Below, one piece after another: positions 1-31,084 of a stretch of DNA of 31,084 nt. Source of the DNA: a virus; the IMG/VR virus record IMGVR_UViG_3300006793_003010, positions 1-31,084 of that record; one strand, given 5' to 3'. Positions within the stretch are counted from its first letter, which is position 1; the number at the start of each line of letters is the position of its first letter. Made by a program: the position numbers and the translations under genes. The notes beneath the pieces were generated by a model that did no database searches, had not been told where the DNA came from, and saw only the letters and a list, made by a program, of their open reading frames with translations.

Positions 1-98
1 ACTGCACCGACTGCATCTTCAACAATATCAACGGCACCGCCAACAACTTCCCCGACAAGATCGACTGCACCTTCAACGATATTAGCAACAAACGACAT
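1..98 (-). CDS. N-terminal fragment of an unknown phage protein (runs off the left edge)
   Basis: Only the first 32 codons are inside the window; the ATG is at 98-96. The visible peptide alternates Val/Ala/Gly with acidic residues (it begins MSFVANIVEGAVDLVGEVV) and looks like an amphipathic helix with a repeating VxGAVD pattern. It starts one base after the stop of the upstream 155-aa gene, so it belongs to the same operon. In related phages, N-termini of this kind often begin long virion or ejection proteins; that is inference from style and position only. Function unknown. Confidence 0.6.
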   Translation of the reverse strand, partial: MSFVANIVEGAVDLVGEVVGGAVDIVEDAVGA

Positions 99-23639: not shown

Positions 23640-26129
23640 TTATGACTCCTTCTTAGGTGTTTGCTTCTGTGCGTTCTGCATCATGCGAGCCAGCTCAAGG
23701 TCAACCTTGTTCTCCTCCACACGTTTAGCGGTCATGTCCCGCACACCTTGACGCTTGGCGTCAATCGCTAACTCAGCCTTGTCCACGTTGATCTGTTCTG
23801 ACGCAATCTTAGCGTCGATCATCATCTTCTGAGCTTTGAGCTGTACTTCTGCTTGCTTGATCTGCGCGTCAGCCTGATCGTTTGCGGCTTTACGCTGCTG
23901 TTCTGCTTGTTTGATCTGCAGCTCGGCCTGTTTCATCTGGATGATCGGGTCTTGCTGCTGCTGTTGAGCCTTCTGCTGCGCTGCCTGCTGCTGGTTTGCC
24001 TGCGTAAGTTGCTTGCCTGCGTCTGCGACCAGACGTGACAGTTGTACTTCCATATCCTCGTCCATCTCCTCGTTCGGAGCGGGTAGTGGTACACCCAACT
24101 TCTCTTCGATTTTCGTGCGATACGCAAACCCAAGGTGTTCGGCAATATGCGCCTGTAGTGAGGCCATGATCTGTTTTGCCTGTGGGTTCTGCCCGATCAT
24201 CTGCATCATCATCGGGTCTTGCATGAACGATGTATGTGTGGCGATATGCGCTTCGTGATCTTGATAGATAAACGCTTTCATCGGCTTGCCGACCAGCGCG
24301 TCCATGTTCTCGCTGATTGGGTCCGTAGGCTTCGCATCGTCCTTCGTAGGCACGAGCTTGTCTGCGTTCTTCACGCCTAGCACTTCTATCATCTGACGAT
24401 GTAACTGTGGTAGGTCATAAATCTGTGGAGCCTGCGCTGACATCTGAAGAACAGTTTGGTACTGAACTACCCGTTGTGCCATCGTAGAGTTGTTAGGGTC
24501 GCTCACAGGGATCACATCGACCATCATGTAGTCAGCACGCTTGGCACTCACTTCGCCTCTGTGTGGGACGTACGCGTACTCTGCGGGGGCATACTCCGCC
24601 ATGATAGCCTTGAGGAGCTTGAACTCCTGCTTCATAGCGTAGTGCACACGTGCTTGCACCGCGGCCATAGGTTTGAGTGTGCGTTCCAGCAGTGCCAGTG
24701 TTGTGCCCACAGGAGCGTTAGCGGACATGTCGGAGATGTCCATATCGCTGATAGCGCCCAACCGACGACCTTCGGTAGTAATCTGGTTCAATAGGGCTAG
24801 GAGCGTCTGTGAAGGCTCCTTATAGGGTAAAGGCATAATGTTGTCACGGATAGACCCTGACGGTACATCTACGTCCTTAAACTCGCCCGGGTTGATCGGC
24901 TCGTCGTCCCCCTTGATACGTAGTCCACGGGACTTTAGCCCTCCCGGGAGGTTGGAGAGCGTACCAGCATCAACGAGCTGACGTATCAAGGAAGTTCCGG
25001 CACGGGCATATCCACCAATAATATGGATCAATCCGAGGCCATAGAACCCGAATCCCGGCACGTATACATAGTGGACGAAGTGCTGGCGCTTGAGAGTAAG
25101 AGGGTCACTCTCCTCGTAGTTTCTACGGATAGCCAGCACTTCGCCACTTCCACGCTCAATAGTGACAACATATGGGCGAGCAATCCCAGCGTCGTCATCA
25201 ACACCATCAATTAAGAGGTCAGCGTGTATCTCGTAAATAGCATAACGATCATCATTTGTAAGAGAATATCCACCATCTTCAGCTTTTTTCTCTTCAATAT
25301 CAGTGTGGTAAGGTTCTGGCTCCCCAAGGTCTACATCTCTATAGAACCCTGCGGCTTGTAACTTCTTTAATTCGTTCTTTGTCTTACGCATTACGTGCGT
25401 TACACGCTCTGCGGACTCGATATTTGACGCACCATAGGGCACAATCACGTCTTCTGCAGAGATATAAATAGCCGTTTGACGACCTAAATTAGGGTCAAAA
25501 TACACCTTTTTGAAGGCCGACCCGGCCAAACCAAGGCTGTATAACATTCTTTCGTGCTCTGGACGATACTCAATCATATTCTCAGTGAGTTCGTAGTTCA
25601 TATCAGCCTTGACACGGCCTGCTGCTTCTTCCTTTTCCTTGGTTTCTTCACCAAGAATCTTTGTTTTTACTGGACCTGCGGCGGGAAACGTCTCCGTCAT
25701 AGCCTCTGCTTGGAACCGAATGGCTGCTTCCGCTAAAACTGTGGAGTTAACCCCACATGCGCCTTCCCATGGGTCCATACGTTCTTCGTATTTGAAGCCC
25801 AACACGTCCAGACCTTTAACAAATGTGTCCGCCCAGTCTTTACGACCGTCAATATCTGTCTCGACTTGGCCTACAAGCTCGCCAGATAACTCATTTAAAT
25901 GTGACTCATCAAGGGCTTCGGCTAGGTTCATACCAAACTCGGTAAAATCCATCTCGTCACCGGGGATAATGGTGATCTCCATGCTACCGTCATCTAGTGT
26001 GACCGACTCTGGGTCAACGATCTCAATCTCTAAGTCGGAGACATCCATCTCTTCTACGCCGTCCAGCCCGCCTTCGAGGTCATCCTCAAAGCCTTTTGGT
26101 GCTGCGTATAATCCTTTTTCAATAGCCAT
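23640..26129 (-). CDS. Portal protein (large, P22-type)
   Basis: An 829-aa portal. Residues 1-60 are acidic; the wing/stem core lies at about 90-600 (DPWEGACGVNSTVLAEAAIR, GLAGSAFKKVYFDPNLGR, PYGASNIESAERVTHVMRKT, YVYVPGFGFYGLGLIHIIGG, NAPVGTTLALLERTLKPM). Residues about 695-820 are a long coiled coil starting with a Gln-rich run (708-740), corresponding to the helical barrel seen in P22-type portals. At the large end of the family, this is in keeping with podovirus portals. The dodecameric ring would form the DNA channel. GGGG lies before the ATG, 11 nt after the terminase stop. Confidence 0.92.
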   Translation of the reverse strand: MAIEKGLYAAPKGFEDDLEGGLDGVEEMDVSDLEIEIVDPESVTLDDGSMEITIIPGDEMDFTEFGMNLAEALDESHLNELSGELVGQVETDIDGRKDWADTFVKGLDVLGFKYEERMDPWEGACGVNSTVLAEAAIRFQAEAMTETFPAAGPVKTKILGEETKEKEEAAGRVKADMNYELTENMIEYRPEHERMLYSLGLAGSAFKKVYFDPNLGRQTAIYISAEDVIVPYGASNIESAERVTHVMRKTKNELKKLQAAGFYRDVDLGEPEPYHTDIEEKKAEDGGYSLTNDDRYAIYEIHADLLIDGVDDDAGIARPYVVTIERGSGEVLAIRRNYEESDPLTLKRQHFVHYVYVPGFGFYGLGLIHIIGGYARAGTSLIRQLVDAGTLSNLPGGLKSRGLRIKGDDEPINPGEFKDVDVPSGSIRDNIMPLPYKEPSQTLLALLNQITTEGRRLGAISDMDISDMSANAPVGTTLALLERTLKPMAAVQARVHYAMKQEFKLLKAIMAEYAPAEYAYVPHRGEVSAKRADYMMVDVIPVSDPNNSTMAQRVVQYQTVLQMSAQAPQIYDLPQLHRQMIEVLGVKNADKLVPTKDDAKPTDPISENMDALVGKPMKAFIYQDHEAHIATHTSFMQDPMMMQMIGQNPQAKQIMASLQAHIAEHLGFAYRTKIEEKLGVPLPAPNEEMDEDMEVQLSRLVADAGKQLTQANQQQAAQQKAQQQQQDPIIQMKQAELQIKQAEQQRKAANDQADAQIKQAEVQLKAQKMMIDAKIASEQINVDKAELAIDAKRQGVRDMTAKRVEENKVDLELARMMQNAQKQTPKKES

Positions 26130-26140
26130 AGCTAAATCCC

Positions 26141-27694
26141 CTAATAATACCCGCCTCGACGCTGTTTAAAGAACCGCTGTTCTTCAGGCTCATCGGAAGG
26201 CAACCGAATAAACCCTCCCTGCCGAAAGCGCATAAGGGCCATCACCGTGGAGTCTACAAGGTCATCATTACTCATAAATGGAAATCCTGCAATCTCTTCG
26301 ACAACTTCTTCAGCCCACCGTGTCTGCGGCACCCACACAAGTTCGGACGCAATTATGTCCGCTACAGAGTTGAGACGTGCCGTTTTGTCTCCCGACCCCC
26401 TGTGAGGGGTATACTCTGATACTGGCAAGCCCATACGCCGCATCTCTTGATACAAGGCTACACCAGAGCTTTTCTTCTCCACAATGAACGAATCTGGTTC
26501 CCAGTCTTGGTACTCTTCCATTGCAAGTTGTTTAAGCTCTGGGAACTCCATACGCTGTTTGATACTATTTAACAATATAATATTGTACGCGTTGGTCTCT
26601 TCGTTCAAGAATACACCCCATGTGGTAAGGGCTGTATAGTCTGCACGGTTATGTCTCTCGGCTGCGGCGTCAAGCGACATGATAATATACTCACAGGACG
26701 GAGGTTGCTCATGCGTCCACTCCTGCCACCACTCTCGTTTGACGATAGCGGCTTCTTCTGCGGTAGGTTTTTGCTGATACTGCGCATTCCACTGGAACGT
26801 AGGCATCGACGCCTTGGTACGTAGAAGAGCTTCCAAATCGAAGAACTCAGGCCACAGAGGCTTCTGTACTTCTTTCTTCGTCTTCTTGTTACGCACTTCT
26901 AGTATAGCTGGGAACTCAACCACCTCATACTGATCGGAGCGTTCGTTCTGTGTCATGTCACGTACAACACGACCAGTCAGGTCATCCATATGCCAACGTG
27001 TCTGTATGATAGCCACACGGCCCCCGGGCATCAGACGGGTACGAGCACCGAAGGTGAACCACTCATATGCCTTCTCAAAGACCTCAAAGTTGCCGTTGAT
27101 AACATCTTGTTCTGAGTGTGGATCATCCACAAGTAACAAGTCAGCACCACGGCCTGCGAGTGCAGAGCCAATACCGCACGCATAGTATTCTCCTCCCACA
27201 TTGGTGTTCCACCGTCCCGCTGACTTACTATCAGACGCAAGCTGCACGGTGGGAAATATCGACCTATACTCGTCAGTAGCAATCAGGTTACGGACCTTAC
27301 GCCCAAAATCTACAGCGAGATCAGTAGTATGCGAGACCATCATAACTTTTTTGTCTGGGTTTCGCCCTAAAAACCACGCCGGGTAGAAGATAGAAACAAG
27401 CTGTGACTTGCCATGACGTGGTGGGATATTCACGCAAACGCGGTCTTTATCGCCCTTTTCAATGCCCATAAGCATGTTTGCCAGTATGCGGTGGTGTTTA
27501 CCTACAATAAAGTCTGGCATCATCAGCTTGCAGAACTCGATTAGGTCGTCATACGCGCGTTTGTTGGTGCTTCTTGTGTGTAACTCGTCAACCATACGGT
27601 CAATTTCAGCTACTTCCTCAGTGCTGAACGCATCTAGGTTCGCCAACATGACCTCAATATCGGCCTCGTTGAAATCTAACCCTTCAGTCATCAT
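26141..27694 (-). CDS. terL: Terminase large subunit
   Basis: About 517 aa from the ATG at 27694 (27691 is an equally possible ATG; the in-frame codon further upstream is TTG). ATPase motifs: Walker A IPPRHGKSQ near residue 94-100, Walker B LLLVDD followed by PHS near 189-194, and a coupling motif IQTRWH near 234-238 (numbered from the longer frame, three residues more). Nuclease motifs: SLDAAA (Asp345), IVEKKSSG (Glu409) and SNDDLVDS (Asp480-484). It cuts concatemers and drives DNA into the procapsid through the portal. It overlaps the TerS candidate by about 10 nt. Gene order and motifs make the call secure. Confidence 0.96.
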   Translation of the reverse strand: MMTEGLDFNEADIEVMLANLDAFSTEEVAEIDRMVDELHTRSTNKRAYDDLIEFCKLMMPDFIVGKHHRILANMLMGIEKGDKDRVCVNIPPRHGKSQLVSIFYPAWFLGRNPDKKVMMVSHTTDLAVDFGRKVRNLIATDEYRSIFPTVQLASDSKSAGRWNTNVGGEYYACGIGSALAGRGADLLLVDDPHSEQDVINGNFEVFEKAYEWFTFGARTRLMPGGRVAIIQTRWHMDDLTGRVVRDMTQNERSDQYEVVEFPAILEVRNKKTKKEVQKPLWPEFFDLEALLRTKASMPTFQWNAQYQQKPTAEEAAIVKREWWQEWTHEQPPSCEYIIMSLDAAAERHNRADYTALTTWGVFLNEETNAYNIILLNSIKQRMEFPELKQLAMEEYQDWEPDSFIVEKKSSGVALYQEMRRMGLPVSEYTPHRGSGDKTARLNSVADIIASELVWVPQTRWAEEVVEEIAGFPFMSNDDLVDSTVMALMRFRQGGFIRLPSDEPEEQRFFKQRRGGYY

Positions 27695-28277
27695 CAAACC
27701 CAAATTCTTCGTCGGTATCTATCGCGGTAGCCTCTATAACCGTGGCGTCTTCTACCTCTGGGGGTGGGTTTACCAGCTTTGTGAGCTTACTACGCAGCTT
27801 TTCTTTGATGTCGTCGGTGGTTTGGTGCGTAATCGTCACCTCAGACTTCTCTGTAAACAAGCCTACGTCTGAAATCTTACCCAAAAGCTCAAGTGCACGC
27901 ATCCGCACGCGAGGATCAGGGTTTTCGGACTCAATTATGAGCTTATTGGTCACTAGATTGCGCAGTTGTTTAGAAGATTCGACCACGGAATGGTTAAATT
28001 CGTCTATGATGTTGCTTGTTAGTCGGACAGACGCAGGTGTTAACATGGCTGCACGCTTGTTGGTAACTTTTTGGGACGTTTTATCTGGTGCGCTGGCATA
28101 TGCAGTGGCTAAAGTAGCAGCAGCTTCCTTGTCGGCCTCATCTGGCTCAAGGTTTACGCCATGTTCTTCTAATTTATCCACGGTTTTACCCAACGCAGCC
28201 GTGCGTTCCGGTAGAGGTATGCTCTTAACCTCGTCTTCTAGGGGCACCCCTAGCTCGGGAATGGCATTCATTGTCAT
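27684..28277 (-). CDS. Terminase small subunit candidate
   Basis: About 197 aa from the ATG at 28277 (28271 is an alternative). A longer frame from a TTG at 28337 is rejected because that codon is the promoter -35. The protein is helical and charged: PLEDEVKSIPLPERTAALGK, a central SVRLTSNIIDEFNHSVVESS helix, ADPRVRMRALELLGKISD-like repeats and an acidic C-terminus (DTDEEFGFDDD). Position directly upstream of and overlapping terL is the main argument for TerS; a helix-turn-helix is not obvious. There is no good ribosome site. It is the first gene of the late operon. Confidence 0.7.
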   Translation of the reverse strand: MTMNAIPELGVPLEDEVKSIPLPERTAALGKTVDKLEEHGVNLEPDEADKEAAATLATAYASAPDKTSQKVTNKRAAMLTPASVRLTSNIIDEFNHSVVESSKQLRNLVTNKLIIESENPDPRVRMRALELLGKISDVGLFTEKSEVTITHQTTDDIKEKLRSKLTKLVNPPPEVEDATVIEATAIDTDEEFGFDDD

Positions 28278-28470: not shown

Positions 28471-28490
28471 ATTTAGGGAGTTCCCTAAAT
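28471..28490. repeat. Recurring palindrome, copy 1
   Basis: Arms ATTTAGGGA and TCCCTAAAT with a GT centre. Nearly identical palindromes occur at 29341, 29442, 29905 and 30401. Here it lies next to the iteron array, about 140 bases before the 180-aa gene. Operator for a dimeric regulator or an RNA hairpin. Confidence 0.85.
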
Positions 28491-28493
28491 GGT

Positions 28494-28533
28494 ATCCAAT
28501 GCCATCCAATGCCATACGATGCCAAGCGATGCG
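28494..28533. repeat. Four tandem 10-bp iterons
   Basis: Four contiguous 10-bp units: ATCCAATGCC twice exactly, then ATACGATGCC and AAGCGATGCG. The 10-bp period puts each copy on the same DNA face. Two inverted GGCAT half-sites follow at 28560-28569. This is typical of initiator or regulator binding arrays. Confidence 0.75.
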
Positions 28534-28543
28534 GTTCTATCTA

Positions 28544-28572
28544 TTGTCTAACATGTTATGGCATGGCATAAA
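28544..28572 (+). promoter_or_regulatory. Probable rightward promoter for the 180-aa gene
   Basis: TTGTCT (28544-28549), 17-nt spacer, CATAAA (28567-28572). Four to five matches per hexamer, so moderate. It lies between the iterons and the inverted repeat at 28575-28616, with its start point inside the first arm, which would suit repression. Confidence 0.45.
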
Positions 28573-28574
28573 GT

Positions 28575-28616
28575 AATTGTCAGCACGGCCATGAGGCGAA
28601 AATAAGTCTGACAATT
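28575..28616 (+). promoter_or_regulatory. Inverted repeat in front of the 180-aa gene
   Basis: Perfect 9-bp arms AATTGTCAG (28575-28583) and CTGACAATT (28608-28616) with a 24-nt loop, ending 2 nt before the GGAG ribosome site of the 180-aa gene. It could be an autoregulatory operator or a leader hairpin controlling translation. Confidence 0.6.
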
Positions 28617-28628
28617 TGGAGTAATACA

Positions 28629-29171
28629 ATGTCTAATCTTACAATCAACGAGATCGCAATCAACGCAATCAAAAAAGCCTATACTGGCCGCTTTGGCGCA
28701 GAGGATAAGTTTGCAGAGCACATGGATGTAGCAAAGCAGCACATGCGCTGGACGGATGCGGTTGCGCCCACCAAGAACAACCTTGCCTCTGGCAAGTCAA
28801 CGGCCACCAAGGAAAGCCGTGAGCAATTGGTGCAGCTCTTTACTGGCGTGCTGAAAAGCAAGAAGCGCGCCCATGACAGCGCAGCGGTTGGCGCAGAGAT
28901 AAAGGATCTCAAGAACCAGCTCATGCTACGCCAAGAGCCTGCACTATACGCAGAGACTGGCGGCAACCTTGGCAAGATCGAAGCCGTAGAGGGTGGCAAT
29001 GCGCAGGTCAAACCAAAGCCTGCCGACAAGACAGCCATTGAGATGCGCGATCAACTCATCACCAACGTCAAGAATTGGGTTGAGAAAAACAGCGTCGAGC
29101 TTGGCCAAGATTATACGCCAACACGCAAGGCGATACTCGCGGCAATGGAAACACTGTCAATCAAACGCTAA
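28629..29171 (+). CDS. Unknown protein of the rightward (early-side) operon (180 aa)
   Basis: Starts MSNLTINEIAINAIKKAYTG; GGAG lies 8 nt before the ATG. The N-terminal third (FGAEDKFAEHMDVAKQHMR) is helical and could hold a DNA-binding helix-turn-helix-like region. Then comes NNLASGKSTATKESREQLVQ, a basic KSKKRAHDS segment, a coiled stretch (EIKDLKNQLMLRQE) and a C-terminal helical domain (DQLITNVKNWVEKNS). It has its own terminator 9 nt after the stop and a palindrome, iterons and an inverted repeat upstream, so it is a separately controlled gene. A regulator or replication protein is a fair guess; no family recognised. Confidence 0.8.
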   Translation: MSNLTINEIAINAIKKAYTGRFGAEDKFAEHMDVAKQHMRWTDAVAPTKNNLASGKSTATKESREQLVQLFTGVLKSKKRAHDSAAVGAEIKDLKNQLMLRQEPALYAETGGNLGKIEAVEGGNAQVKPKPADKTAIEMRDQLITNVKNWVEKNSVELGQDYTPTRKAILAAMETLSIKR

Positions 29172-29179
29172 CATCTTAC

Positions 29180-29211
29180 GGGGTAGGGCTTCGGCTCTAC
29201 CCCATTTTTTT
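29180..29211 (+). terminator. Rho-independent terminator after the 180-aa gene
   Basis: Stem GGGGTAGGGC with UUCG loop and GCTCTACCCC (29180-29203), one G-U pair, followed by A and seven T. Lies 9 nt after the stop codon. Strong intrinsic terminator with a C(UUCG)G loop like the capsid terminator. Confidence 0.93.
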
Positions 29212-29217
29212 ATGTCC

Positions 29218-29248
29218 TATGATACCAGTATCCCGGTAGCGTTGCGCC
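29218..29248. repeat. 31-bp direct repeat, copy A
   Basis: First of three copies of a 31-bp repeat (others at 29362-29392 and 29463-29493). The core contains GATACCAGTATC, itself a palindrome with arms GATAC/GTATC. Further conserved: GTAGCG and a CGCC end. Unlike B and C this copy is not preceded by the ATTTAGGGA palindrome but by terminator 1. Confidence 0.8.
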
Positions 29249-29316
29249 TTACCTGTTGCGCATTGGCACGTTACGTGCTACCTATACACAGGCTCATACC
29301 ATAACGCCCCCCTCGG

Positions 29317-29339
29317 CCCGCTTCGGCGGGTCTTTTTTT
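29317..29339 (+). terminator. Second Rho-independent terminator
   Basis: Stem CCCGC-TTCG-GCGGG (29317-29330) followed by TCTTTTTTT. It is about 105 nt after terminator 1 with no gene between, so it either backs up the first or ends a separate short transcript. Confidence 0.88.
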
Positions 29340-29340
29340 G

Positions 29341-29358
29341 TTTAGGGATTTCCCCATA
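29341..29358. repeat. Recurring palindrome, copy 2 (degenerate)
   Basis: TTTAGGGA, TT, then TCCCCATA: the left arm is intact and the right arm has two changes. It begins directly after terminator 2's T tract and sits 3 bases before repeat B, the same spacing as copy 3 and repeat C. Confidence 0.7.
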
Positions 29359-29361
29359 TAA

Positions 29362-29392
29362 TATGATACCAGTAGCTGAGTAGCGCCACGCC
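29362..29392. repeat. 31-bp direct repeat, copy B
   Basis: Aligned without gaps to copies A and C; the palindromic core is GATACCAGTAGC, with one arm changed. Preceded by the degenerate palindrome copy 2. Confidence 0.8.
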
Positions 29393-29441
29393 ACACCATG
29401 AGATGTCATGTACCAGTGGGGTTAACACACTACCCACTACG

Positions 29442-29459
29442 TTTAGGGATTTCCCTAAA
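29442..29459. repeat. Recurring palindrome, copy 3
   Basis: Perfect arms TTTAGGGA and TCCCTAAA with a TT centre, 3 bases before repeat C, so palindrome and 31-bp repeat form a composite unit. Confidence 0.85.
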
Positions 29460-29462
29460 TGA

Positions 29463-29493
29463 TCTGATACCAGTATCTGAGTAGCGGTGCGCC
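29463..29493. repeat. 31-bp direct repeat, copy C
   Basis: Third copy, with GATACCAGTATC core and CTGAGTAGCG as in copy B. Spacing between A, B and C starts is 144 and 101 bases. Confidence 0.8.
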
Positions 29494-29504
29494 TCGCGCA
29501 AAGG

Positions 29505-29542
29505 CTAAGTGTCTGAAAACAAAGCAATGTATCATTTGTACC
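29505..29542. repeat. 38-bp direct repeat, copy 1
   Basis: Begins CTAAGTGTCTGA and ends TTTGTACC. Aligned to 29568-29605 without gaps, 32 of 38 bases are identical. Additional TGTACC or GGTACA words lie around it (about 29550, 29700, 29760-29775). Confidence 0.85.
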
Positions 29543-29567
29543 GTCCGTGTACCGTTGCAAATGGGGT

Positions 29568-29605
29568 CTAAGTGTCTGATATTAAAACAATGTAGCGTTT
29601 GTACC
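29568..29605. repeat. 38-bp direct repeat, copy 2
   Basis: Second copy, 63 bases after the start of the first. It abuts an AT-rich stretch (29607-29640), an arrangement seen in many replication origins. Confidence 0.85.
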
Positions 29606-29606
29606 A

Positions 29607-29640
29607 CTTTTATAAGTATATATATCTAACTTTTATTGAA
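29607..29640. other. AT-rich stretch next to the 38-bp repeats
   Basis: About 34 bases almost without G or C (ACTTTTATAAGTATATATAT then more), directly after the second 38-bp repeat. It could act as a DNA-unwinding element if this is an origin, or simply supply a promoter -10. Confidence 0.45.
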
Positions 29641-29813
29641 GGGTAAAAGAGAGGGTCTTTCGCCTAAAAACCCTTTCAAGAATCTTGACATATCACTATG
29701 GTACAAGCGTGACTTTGCTACATCCCTTTAATATCAGTAGCTTACAGACACCCGTGGTGGTACATGATGGTACATACAACGTATACCCACCACACGATAG
29801 TTCTAAACACCCA

Positions 29814-29842
29814 TTGACATTTCCCGATACTTGTGTTATGTT
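29814..29842 (+). promoter_or_regulatory. Sigma70-type promoter for the zinc-protein operon
   Basis: Perfect TTGACA (29814-29819), 17-nt spacer, TATGTT (29837-29842). The transcript would start near 29849 and carry a leader of about 90 nt containing palindrome copy 4 just before the ribosome site of the next gene. Confidence 0.75.
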
Positions 29843-29904
29843 ATATGTATGGTCGGACTTCTTCCCACCTGTTGGGGCTGTTCGCCCTACCCATTCAACC
29901 AACC

Positions 29905-29924
29905 ATTTAGGGATTTCCCTAAAT
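29905..29924 (+). promoter_or_regulatory. Recurring palindrome, copy 4, ahead of the zinc-protein gene
   Basis: Perfect arms ATTTAGGGA and TCCCTAAAT with TT centre, 16 bases before the ATG and 5 before the GGAG ribosome site. In RNA it folds into an 8-bp hairpin with a four-base loop, so it may act on transcription or translation. Confidence 0.85.
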
Positions 29925-29940
29925 CAACCGGAGTAAGACA

Positions 29941-30144
29941 ATGAACGACAACGAGTGCAACACCTGCGGTGAGATGTTTCCCATCAGCCGCGCCCGACTT
30001 GGTTACAACGTATGCCTAGTATGTGGCGACCTTGTAGCTGCAAGCCAACGTGCAAGCTGGTGCGTAGTGCCGCTTCCCAAACAAGGCTACACCCGCGTAA
30101 CCAACAAGACTGACTTGTTACATCTAAACCAGAAGGGGCGGTGA
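29941..30144 (+). CDS. Small C4 zinc protein, DksA/TraR-type finger (67 aa)
   Basis: Cys6 and Cys9 (CNTCGEMFP) with Cys25 and Cys28 (VCLVCGD) form a four-cysteine finger of C-x2-C-x15-C-x2-C. The first knuckle followed by G-x-x-F-P-x-x-R and the second by a Gly resembles the zinc finger of DksA/TraR proteins, some of which phages use to modulate host RNA polymerase. The long coiled-coil of full DksA is absent, so this is a finger-only relative or an unrelated ribbon. GGAG lies before the ATG and a palindrome just upstream. Transcription control is a plausible role but unproven. Confidence 0.8.
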   Translation: MNDNECNTCGEMFPISRARLGYNVCLVCGDLVAASQRASWCVVPLPKQGYTRVTNKTDLLHLNQKGR

Positions 30145-30145
30145 T

Positions 30146-30397
30146 ATGGCTAAACGGTTTTTACTGTTCACATCGGCAACATACTACCCGTATGGCGGAA
30201 TGGATGATTGCAAGGGTGTGTTCGCCTCGCTCAACGATGCTGTTGACCACGCGACTAGCTCTAATGGCTACAGCGCAACGGAAAATATGCACATTCTCGA
30301 AATAGGTGACGAGCTAACTGTTTGGGAATGTGACCGCACAGGTCAAGTGCTCGACGCCATATCCTTGGCTGACCATATCAAAACAAACGAAACTTAA
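30146..30397 (+). CDS. Small unknown protein (83 aa)
   Basis: Starts MAKRFLLFTSATYYPYGGMD, with a short DDCKGVFASLNDAVDHATS helix, then MHILEIGDELTVWECDRTG. The alpha/beta pattern suggests a compact fold like that of small phage proteins found in early operons. GGGGCGG lies before the ATG, one base after the stop of the zinc-protein gene, so the two are co-transcribed. I do not know its function. Confidence 0.8.
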   Translation: MAKRFLLFTSATYYPYGGMDDCKGVFASLNDAVDHATSSNGYSATENMHILEIGDELTVWECDRTGQVLDAISLADHIKTNET

Positions 30398-30400
30398 ACC

Positions 30401-30420
30401 ATTTAGGGAAATCCCTAAAC
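30401..30420 (+). promoter_or_regulatory. Recurring palindrome, copy 5, ahead of the last gene
   Basis: Arms ATTTAGGGA and TCCCTAAAC with AA centre; one base differs from perfect. It lies 17 bases before the ATG at 30438 and 5 before the AGGAG site, the same placement as copy 4. There is no T tract, so it is not a terminator. Confidence 0.85.
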
Positions 30421-30437: not shown

Positions 30438-31084
30438 ATGACTGATACATACACAAACCCATTCGCCGCGCCAAGCGTAGCACCTGCACCATCAATCAGT
30501 TCCGCGGCAATGATCGTGGACTTCAACGCGTCCGTCTGGACTGCACGTAAGAAAGACAACAAGGCATCGGATGATGTCACTAGCATGAACGCGGCAGACA
30601 AGGGCGTGGCCAATGTCACTAAGAACTTACTAGGTGACTGTGACGAGCTGCGGGCCGTCCAGAAGTTCGCGGCTAACGTGCGCAATATACACTACAGCAT
30701 GACAATGCCGTGGTCTGACAATGGCTCCCGACTGCTCACCACCATGCAATATTTCAAGTACAACGAGGTGATGACCGACCTACAGCAAGAGTTCTACAGG
30801 TTGGTCAACGAGTTCTTGAATGTGTACGACTGGAAGATCATGCAGTCTCAAGCCAAGCTGGGCGCGATGTTCAACCGCGACGAGTACCCAACGCGTGACA
30901 GTCTGCATGACAAGTTCGGGTTCCGTATGTCCTATGTACCACTGCCAGACAGCGGTGACTTCCGTATCGACATCGGCAACGAGGCCATGACGCAGATCAA
31001 ATCGCAGTACGAAAGCCACTACACACAGGCAATTCAGACAGCCATGAACGACATATGGCACAAGCTGCACGATAACCTGACCAC
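30438..31084 (+). CDS. Unknown protein, 5' part only (runs off the right edge)
   Basis: Open from the ATG at 30438 to the window end: 215 codons, no stop. AGGAG lies 8 nt before the ATG, with palindrome copy 5 just upstream. After a Pro/Ala-rich start (MTDTYTNPFAAPSVAPAPS) come helical stretches: MIVDFNASVWTARKKDNKAS, KGVANVTKNLLGDCDELRAV, SRLLTTMQYFKYNEVMTDLQ. Further on is a SYVPLPDSGDFRIDIGNEAM segment. The pattern recalls proteins of the DUF3150 type often encoded next to AAA+ ATPases in phages, from memory and weak. A nucleic-acid or replication-linked role fits its side of the genome, but nothing proves it. Confidence 0.8.
   Translation, partial: MTDTYTNPFAAPSVAPAPSISSAAMIVDFNASVWTARKKDNKASDDVTSMNAADKGVANVTKNLLGDCDELRAVQKFAANVRNIHYSMTMPWSDNGSRLLTTMQYFKYNEVMTDLQQEFYRLVNEFLNVYDWKIMQSQAKLGAMFNRDEYPTRDSLHDKFGFRMSYVPLPDSGDFRIDIGNEAMTQIKSQYESHYTQAIQTAMNDIWHKLHDNLT

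Follow-up and report, generated by a model that had tools for sequence, protein, structure and literature searches.

The right-hand end of IMG/VR record IMGVR_UViG_3300006793_003010, analysed here in full (the window, 31,084 bases), carries repeated copies of a palindrome of 20 letters, ATTTAGGGA-NN-TCCCTAAAT, around the start of its early genes, and the question is whether these are DNA operators or RNA hairpins and which protein reads them. Both strands of the entire window were searched with ATTTAGGGANNTCCCTAAAT, allowing three mismatches or fewer. Exactly five matches were obtained, four with near-intact arms and one degenerate (P1 to P5 from left to right, Table 1), while 100 dinucleotide-preserving shuffles gave a mean of 0.03 matches and a maximum of one, and none contained five. 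The five copies across 2 kb described in the original prediction are therefore real, with their arms kept and the 2-base centre reading GT, TT or AA. Their coordinates were right or, for the second and third copies (29340 and 29441), one base off, and the fourth and fifth copies indeed end 16 bases before ATG 29941 and 17 bases before ATG 30438. Nothing beyond these five was found in the rest of the window, and the leftward late operon contained no copy at this threshold, as had been noticed before. The record looks like a phage genome fragment whose right end apparently cuts a DUF3150-like gene; further copies are thus expected past that end, and two longer relatives, G001 and G002, hold 11 and 9 copies at two mismatches or fewer. 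Sequence comparisons with related phages make it fairly probable that the palindromes are DNA operators, each arm being one half-site, for the likely dimeric product of R, the first rightward early gene. This candidate reader protein was not named in the original prediction.

An exact search of IMG/VR with the 16 arm bases returned 95 stretches, 20 of which had at least three copies. Many of the multi-copy stretches shared a layout, with sites preceding early genes, another immediately behind an intrinsic terminator, a further one about 100 nucleotides (nt) beyond that and one in the divergent region. In G002 (65.1 kb) the early region contained all nine copies, and the 45 kb of late genes contained none. 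Among bacterial species genomes the exact palindrome occurred in 106 stretches, as a single copy in 105 and as three copies within 123 nt in one (L213), with no sign of a prophage carrying a dispersed site set; single exact copies recurred in Prochlorococcus single-cell genomes (L210, L215, L221 and others). Within a genome the copies tended to have the same 2-base centre, for the most part AC/GT in L046, L050 and L099 and AA/TT in L059 and L067, as if they had been homogenised.

A second sampling route, through the 67-amino-acid (67-aa) early protein encoded behind P4, provided 77 loci. Upstream of the start codon of this protein, a palindrome was present at a similar distance in many of them, often with another sequence, and an unsupervised scan detected a repeated palindrome family (at least three copies) in 68 of the 77. 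About a dozen site types were distinguished, several of them close variants of one another: TTTAGGGA-NN-TCCCTAAA, TTCGGGCA-NN-TGCCCGAA, TTAGGGCA-NN, GTTAGGGA-NN, TTAGGGAA-N, TTTAGGG-N-AT-N, GTACGTCA-N, TGTTAGTG-N3, TTAGTG-N3, GTTATTA-N4, GTTATACG-N3 and, more weakly, TTAGTA-N4. The layout was conserved between types while the palindrome differed, and a genome normally had one type. Labels were given to the window and 73 of the 77 loci (L165, L169, L171 and L176 stayed unlabelled); those of L154, L155, L159, L163 and L164 come from a consensus on two or three copies, those of loci after L164 rest on the unsupervised scan, and the TCGGGCA label lumps sub-variants. Loci of the TTTAGGGA type contained 107 such sites and no TTCGGGCA site, and TCGGGCA-type loci contained 173 sites of their own and one TTTAGGGA site, an exclusivity that is partly built in because labels follow the majority palindrome of each locus. 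The original prediction had named arms that are not conserved in related phages as an outcome that would speak against it. Within a type the arms were conserved; between types they were replaced as a set, which had not been foreseen. A comparable arrangement was found in the cultured Planktothrix phage Pag-Yong1 (OL906435, found via its terminase), which carries 18 copies of GGTTCAG-N-CTGAACC, 17 of them exact, nine of the 18 lying 17-27 nt upstream of annotated starts. In the place of R, beside the divergent region, it has a 187-aa gene whose product had no blastp match to the other R proteins; in contrast to G002, this phage has five copies on the late-gene side as well.

R is the gene that best tracks the palindrome type. 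An R-like gene was present at the equivalent place in most loci and was highly divergent, and blastp linked 53 of 67 R-position proteins into one group spanning types (R was chosen by a simple open reading frame (ORF) rule that left out L132, L141 and L165, and L146 fails the position rule though a matching ORF exists). Identities were compared in the 49 loci having both R and the early AAA ATPase encoded downstream of it, the pairs not being independent. When the ATPases were more than 90% identical, R identity ranged from 0.348 to 1.0 (median 0.78) in 58 pairs of the same type and did not exceed 0.256 (median 0.207) in 30 pairs of different type. With ATPases at least 85% identical (67 same-type and 51 different-type pairs), the median for R fell from 0.73 to 0.12, compared with 0.96 to 0.90 for TerL, 0.97 to 0.82 for TerS, 0.91 to 0.86 for VWA, 0.86 to 0.74 for DUF3150 and 0.89 to 0.66 for the 67-aa protein; R identity was taken over the shorter protein and that of the other genes over aligned columns, with fewer pairs for TerL, TerS and VWA. 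All 18 TTTAGGGA-type R proteins fell in one cluster and all 27 TCGGGCA-type R proteins in another. At least 14 changes of palindrome type are required on the best ATPase tree (47 rows); of five independent supported pairs, an average of 4.8 had the R cluster change in the same direction, and none in the opposite one. A hidden Markov model check, which partly reuses the contigs from which the model was built, assigned a TTTAGGGA-cluster R to 18 of the 20 stretches with at least three copies, the other two having no R match; among 34 stretches with any R match, 31 belonged to the TTTAGGGA cluster and L019, L028 and L056 to the other one. Between G002 and G021, R had no blastp match while the compared replication, ATPase, VWA, terminase and portal genes were 76-95% identical.

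The most extreme pairs combined ATPases 99% identical with R proteins only 14% (L149/L153) or 16% (L105/L110) identical. In L149/L153, where the 67-aa protein is 100% and DUF3150 98% identical, two orthologous sites had 150-nt flanks 87-96% identical on both sides and the palindrome itself had been replaced. This in-place exchange was the least expected result and is the strongest reason for a trans-acting factor reading the sites; at least in this pair, the sites were therefore exchanged singly or in small tracts, not solely as one linked block. In addition, a given position before the 67-aa gene is occupied in close relatives by TCGGGTAGCTGCCCGA or by exactly its reverse complement (L154, L156, L158 and L159 versus L157), as if the palindrome alone had been inverted.

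The form of the palindromes points to DNA. Arm spacing was the same in all 110 exact-arm copies of the TTTAGGGA type and all 184 of the TCGGGCA type, and with one mismatch it differed in 1 of 116 and 2 of 207; three minor labels were mixed (TGTTAGTG 16 and 6, GTTATTA 25 and 1, TTAGGGCA 3 and 1). Duplicate copies were kept for this count and removed for the counts of G-U pairs, start distances and centres. The 248 distinct copies (two mismatches or fewer each) had 57 broken pairs, of which 51 were at the outermost position and two were G-U. A sequence-specific RNA hairpin would be expected to keep its pairing through G-U and compensatory changes and to have a conserved loop and flexible spacing; here the spacing was rigid in the main types, the loop was variable and G-U pairs were few. 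Full compensatory changes of the arms did occur between types, and these are expected of a DNA palindrome too. Since P1 lies upstream of the likely promoter of R, the arms are invariant, the centre is variable and G-U pairs are few, a DNA operator for R fits best. By comparison, the dimeric-protein operator preferred in the original prediction appears the best supported reading, given the rigid spacing, the near absence of G-U pairs and a type that co-varies with one neighbouring gene, and on these sequence features DNA seems considerably more probable than RNA as the form in which the sites are read.

Several observations weigh against reading the palindromes as operators for R. P1 to P3 are linked to R, so that part of the co-variation could be linkage, although distant sites follow too. 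In the other three pairs examined for in-place exchange, most sites aligned well on one side only or on neither. A sign test on the five independent pairs cannot reach p 0.05, the supported branches alone force fewer changes of type (six for TCGGGCA and five for TTTAGGGA), and R is joined by several short ORFs and tail-region genes in having no match between G002 and G021. TCGGGCA is accompanied by several R subfamilies that differ strongly (22-36% identical to that of L136, one of them lacking the Ser-Thr motif described below), L110 and L111 have a common site type and backbone and an R identity of only 0.35, and the R of L103 (TTTAGGG-N-AT-N type) falls in the other cluster. Three contigs (L028, the same contig as L117; L043; L087) carry TTTAGGGA and TCGGGCA sites at different genes, as recombinants would. 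Some copies are located within coding sequence (L046 and the similar L050; L196, within R), and R has no recognisable DNA-binding family or fold. Finally, the position of gene-proximal sites is fixed with respect to the start codon, not the promoter, a spacing that a DNA roadblock does not need, and the centres of TTTAGGGA-type gene-proximal copies are oriented (AA, AC or AG in 39 of 48, TT in 3 of 48), which a symmetric operator does not need either; TCGGGCA-type gene-proximal centres had no strand preference (GA 11 and TC 11 of 42).

The last two points favour control at the RNA level, in which a transcribed hairpin before the ribosome site would be bound by R or another phage protein and block translation, or would be a signal for mRNA processing or stability. 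We regard this as unlikely, though it is the most probable of the rivals. The RNA hairpin had been offered in the original prediction as a second option, and one part of it stands: 115 of 243 distinct copies had an ATG and a ribosome site within 60 nt, and 89 of these 115 were at 16-21 nt from the ATG. Before the 67-aa gene (29 loci), the site was steadily 15-22 nt from the ATG (measured from the 16-base core) while its distance from the promoter varied between 44 and 114 nt. The copies can also fold into a stem of 7-8 pairs with a 4-base loop, at -8.0 kcal/mol for P5 and -9.5 kcal/mol for P4 with short flanks. Against RNA control are the scarcity of G-U pairs and the spacing fixed in the two main types. 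RNA hairpin recognition usually shows the reverse of invariant arms and a variable loop, and a stem kept for pairing only would drift copy by copy, while the actual copies changed together. P1 is situated between divergent promoters, upstream of that of R, P2 and P3 follow terminators, and a site and its reverse complement occupy the same place in the close relatives L154 and L157. Folding z-scores were modest (-1.2 to -2.4), and an Rfam search of the window found no family.

Less likely still, R could be an activator, an antiterminator or a replication regulator, the repeat module around P2 and P3 (palindrome, then TGATACCAGTA...GTAGCG, in units of about 100-144 nt) being an origin or promoter cluster where R starts or licenses replication or early transcription. 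The module is kept in seven loci of three types in which the palindrome was exchanged and the GATACC element largely retained, the sites directly follow terminators, and the present data are compatible with either sign of regulation, all of which would suit this role; gene-proximal sites 44-114 nt downstream of a conserved TTGACA promoter would be unusual for an activator. Centromere-like sites of the parS/ParB or KorB kind, organising or partitioning phage DNA, are improbable. Dispersed multicopy palindromes are typical of ParB-family sites and TTTAG...CTAAA presumably resembles the KorB operator, but ParB_N (PF02195) and the ParA-type AAA_31 (PF13614) had no match in 17 records, mostly fragments (window, G001, G002, G021, G022, G026 and G028 included; controls 10/14 and 14/14), and the sites occupy the early region, frequently in association with gene starts. 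Site-specific recombinase crossover sites, suggested by inverted repeats around a variable 2-base centre and by in-place inversions between relatives, are hardly credible given that tyrosine (PF00589) and serine (PF00239) recombinases were matched in none of the same 17 records (controls 14/14 and 10/14), that gene order between sites is conserved across relatives and that types with 1- and 3-base centres exist.

If the palindromes are operators for R, the following scheme may be proposed. R would be made early, from its gene between P1 and P2/P3, and would bind about ten sites over the roughly 13-kb early region, at the divergent promoters, in the repeat module behind R and just upstream of many early start codons. 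Bound R would most likely block transcription, that is, initiation or read-through at P1 to P3 and, in a stoperator-like manner, elongation at the gene-proximal sites, so that early genes would be switched off and R would limit its own synthesis. Relatives that share the sites would likewise be subject to the R of a resident or earlier-arriving phage. A joint change of R and its sites would free a phage from its relatives, which would explain the many types. More tentatively, the R family and its dispersed palindromes could together act as an interchangeable code of specificity in phages that appear to be lytic. The type would be changed by replacement of R plus in-place re-lettering of the sites, with the adjacent genes left almost as they were, and the changes would be driven by exclusion between co-infecting lytic relatives, in other words, immunity without lysogeny. 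G002 and G021 both look near-complete, as the end genes of one are close neighbours in the other, and since neither has recombinase or Par matches, the usual lysogeny is unlikely for both. The analysis turns an unexplained repeat into a testable pair of regulator and site in phages that are for the most part uncultured, and it points to a candidate DNA-binding family not recognised by the profile libraries and fold searches used. L149/L153 and L105/L110 amount to natural experiments, with ATPases 99% identical and R and sites exchanged, and the mixed contigs L087, L043 and L028 are probably natural recombinants useful for tests. Set-wise switching of dispersed operators bears on how immunity types arise, and many switches are available for study in this phage group; should the system operate without lysogeny, lytic phages would possess an immunity of their own against relatives.

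Table 1. Features of the window around the palindromes (positions in the 31,084-base record).
Feature	Position	Strand	Remarks
Portal gene	23640..26129	-	leftward late gene; family scan
Terminase gene	26141..27703	-	leftward late gene; three more structural/tail genes in the same scan
P1 palindrome ATTTAGGGA-GT-TCCCTAAAT	28471..28490		0 mismatches; divergent region between late operon and R, 53 nt upstream of by-eye R promoter
Likely R promoter TTGTCT-17-CATAAA	28544..28572	+	by eye; not reported by consensus promoter scan
Type-independent inverted repeat TAACATGTTA	28549..28558		inside likely R promoter; loose form TAACRYGTYA in 26/35 loci
Gene R, 180 aa	28629..29171	+	first rightward early gene; candidate cognate DNA-binding regulator (type comparisons, AlphaFold2 model)
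Intrinsic terminator after R	29180..29210	+	10-pair stem, then T run
Repeat module	29221..29490		GATACCAGTA at 29221, 29365 and 29466, spacing about 100-144 nt; last two just past P2 and P3
Second intrinsic terminator (CCCGCTTCGGCGGG, T run)	29315..29339	+	immediately 5' of P2; same order in several relatives
P2 degenerate palindrome	29340..29359		3 mismatches, centre TT; directly 3' of terminator
P3 palindrome	29441..29460		1 mismatch, centre TT; 101 nt past P2
Two 38-nt direct repeats	29505..29605		84% alike, start CTAAGTGTCTGA, end TTTGTACC; in long untranslated stretch upstream of main early promoter
Likely main early promoter TTGACA-17-TATGTT	29814..29842	+	10/12 match; matches this good not commoner than in shuffled sequence
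P4 palindrome	29905..29924		0 mismatches, centre TT; before 67-aa gene
67-aa early protein	29941..30144	+	weakly like DksA/TraR zinc finger (E 0.00071, below Pfam cut-off)
83-aa early protein	30146..30397	+	PHROG 1411-like (PHROG scan), function unknown
P5 palindrome	30401..30420		1 mismatch, centre AA; between two same-direction genes
DUF3150-like early gene	30438..31084	+	truncated by contig end; E 0.0001, below cut-off

The surroundings of R were compared in 35 loci, window included. A palindrome was marked upstream of R in 33 of them, at 102-161 nt in 31 and beside the ribosome site of R in two (L123 and L134); in L114 and L140 a degenerate copy was readable by eye and unmarked by the scan. 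A loose form of the R promoter (TTGNNN-16..18-YATWA) was found in 23/35 loci. The inverted repeat inside this promoter reads TGTAACACGTTACA in L105 and is retained across palindrome types; it is perhaps the site of another, type-independent regulator. TTGACA occurred within 190 nt upstream of the early gene in 29/30 loci. P2 and P3 each precede TGATACCAGTA...GTAGCG, the equivalent of P2 is intact in relatives such as L116 and L126, and the module that they belong to is a possible origin of replication or promoter cluster.

The R protein of the window had no Pfam or PHROG family at E 0.001, ten other R-position proteins gave chance-level Pfam and PHROG matches only, and Pfam contained no helix-turn-helix (HTH) match for R. 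The AlphaFold2 models of the window-type and TTCGGGCA-type proteins, with predicted local distance difference test scores (pLDDT) of 90.6 and 89.8, were mostly helical, the former except for one strand pair. Their N-terminal half has short helices between longer ones, and their long C-terminal helices could pair in a dimer; in the window-type model the short helices 41-44 and 49-53 look HTH-like, by eye only. VIA-align comparisons of R reached Z values of at most 6.0 and mainly covered the C-terminal helices. Fold searches gave no trustworthy PDB match for either model, no viral model match for the window R and no Foldseek match of note, and a profile search of PDB sequences returned designed repeat proteins and chance-level rows only. 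A new fold is not claimed, the models being those of whole R proteins. Ser57-Thr58 (ST) was invariant in 28 aligned R sequences, a selection without the ST-less subfamily. The stretch before it differs by type: the 18 TTTAGGGA phages all have PTK(N/A)N, one TCGGGCA subfamily has HKNRE or AKN(K)(E/D), the TTAGGGCA phage, with a site one base per arm off TTCGGGCA, has TPKSKG, and TGTTAGTG-like phages have SPKSK. This stretch may be part of the recognition surface, which we offer as a lead only; TCGGGCA also accompanies R subfamilies with other motifs at this place or without ST. A 258-aa HTH protein of G002 (PHROG 323, D5-like) was considered as the regulator and rejected: only 6 of 24 records, counting its own, had a match, and the identity of this protein did not follow the palindrome type.

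Searches of named phages gave no match by blastn with the palindrome region or by tblastn with two R proteins, PADLOC gave none, and no account of these palindromes or of R was present among the literature matches listed. In the parts fetched of the terminase relatives, namely the Pelagibacter phages HTVC027P and HTVC023P and the phages 023Pt_psg01 and DSL-LC04, no palindrome family of at least three copies was found; close terminase kin therefore need not carry the system. Distant relatives of the early AAA ATPase (L057:8597-11127 and relatives) occur in 329 named phage records; among those listed, many are about 71-77 kb, such as Nepra and Axy11, which we take to be N4-like.

Among known systems, the repressor of Streptomyces phage phiC31 acts on conserved inverted repeats, palindromic operators dispersed over the early region, and apparently belongs to a protein family other than that of R. 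KorB of plasmid RK2 is a ParB-family protein with dispersed palindromic operators having outer TTTAG/CTAAA, and no ParB_N match was found here in the 17 records. Immunity of the lambda type (cI, cro) combines dimer-type palindromic operators, type-specific repressors and swapping of immunity types; the lambda operators are grouped at two promoters adjoining the repressor gene, whereas the present sites are spread before many genes and exchanged in place. The closest parallel is with the repressor and stoperators of Cluster A mycobacteriophages (L5, Bxb1, TipsytheTRex), as outlined in excerpts of PMC6550527 and PMC9283540. According to these excerpts, the L5 repressor has 183 residues, the stoperators, which are asymmetric 13-mers, are oriented with transcription and bind the repressor as a monomer, repressor distance in the L5 clade correlates with gene-content distance, and Cluster A phages carry an integrase or parABS (PMC6550527, PMC9283540). 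L5 stoperators sit in short intergenic spaces, so a DNA roadblock can occupy such places (PMC9283540, excerpt). As in the Cluster A phages so described, one repressor-sized gene (R, 180 residues) sits at a syntenic position, each genome has many copies of one site, in promoter regions and short intergenic spaces, and site motif and repressor diverge together, giving highly divergent types in one gene order. Unlike the stoperators, the sites studied here are perfect or near-perfect inverted repeats, only the TTTAGGGA-type gene-proximal centre being oriented. R had no sequence or fold match to a known repressor in the PDB, Foldseek, Pfam and PHROG searches, which did not include a direct alignment with L5 gp71, and neither integrase nor parABS was matched in the 17 records, mostly fragments. 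In contrast to the L5 clade, types switch between phages whose ATPases are more than 90% identical. Altogether, these comparisons suggest a system that would work like the mycobacteriophage stoperators and would differ from them in the symmetry of its sites, apparently in the family of its protein, probably in the lifestyle of the phages and in how often types are exchanged between phages that are otherwise similar.

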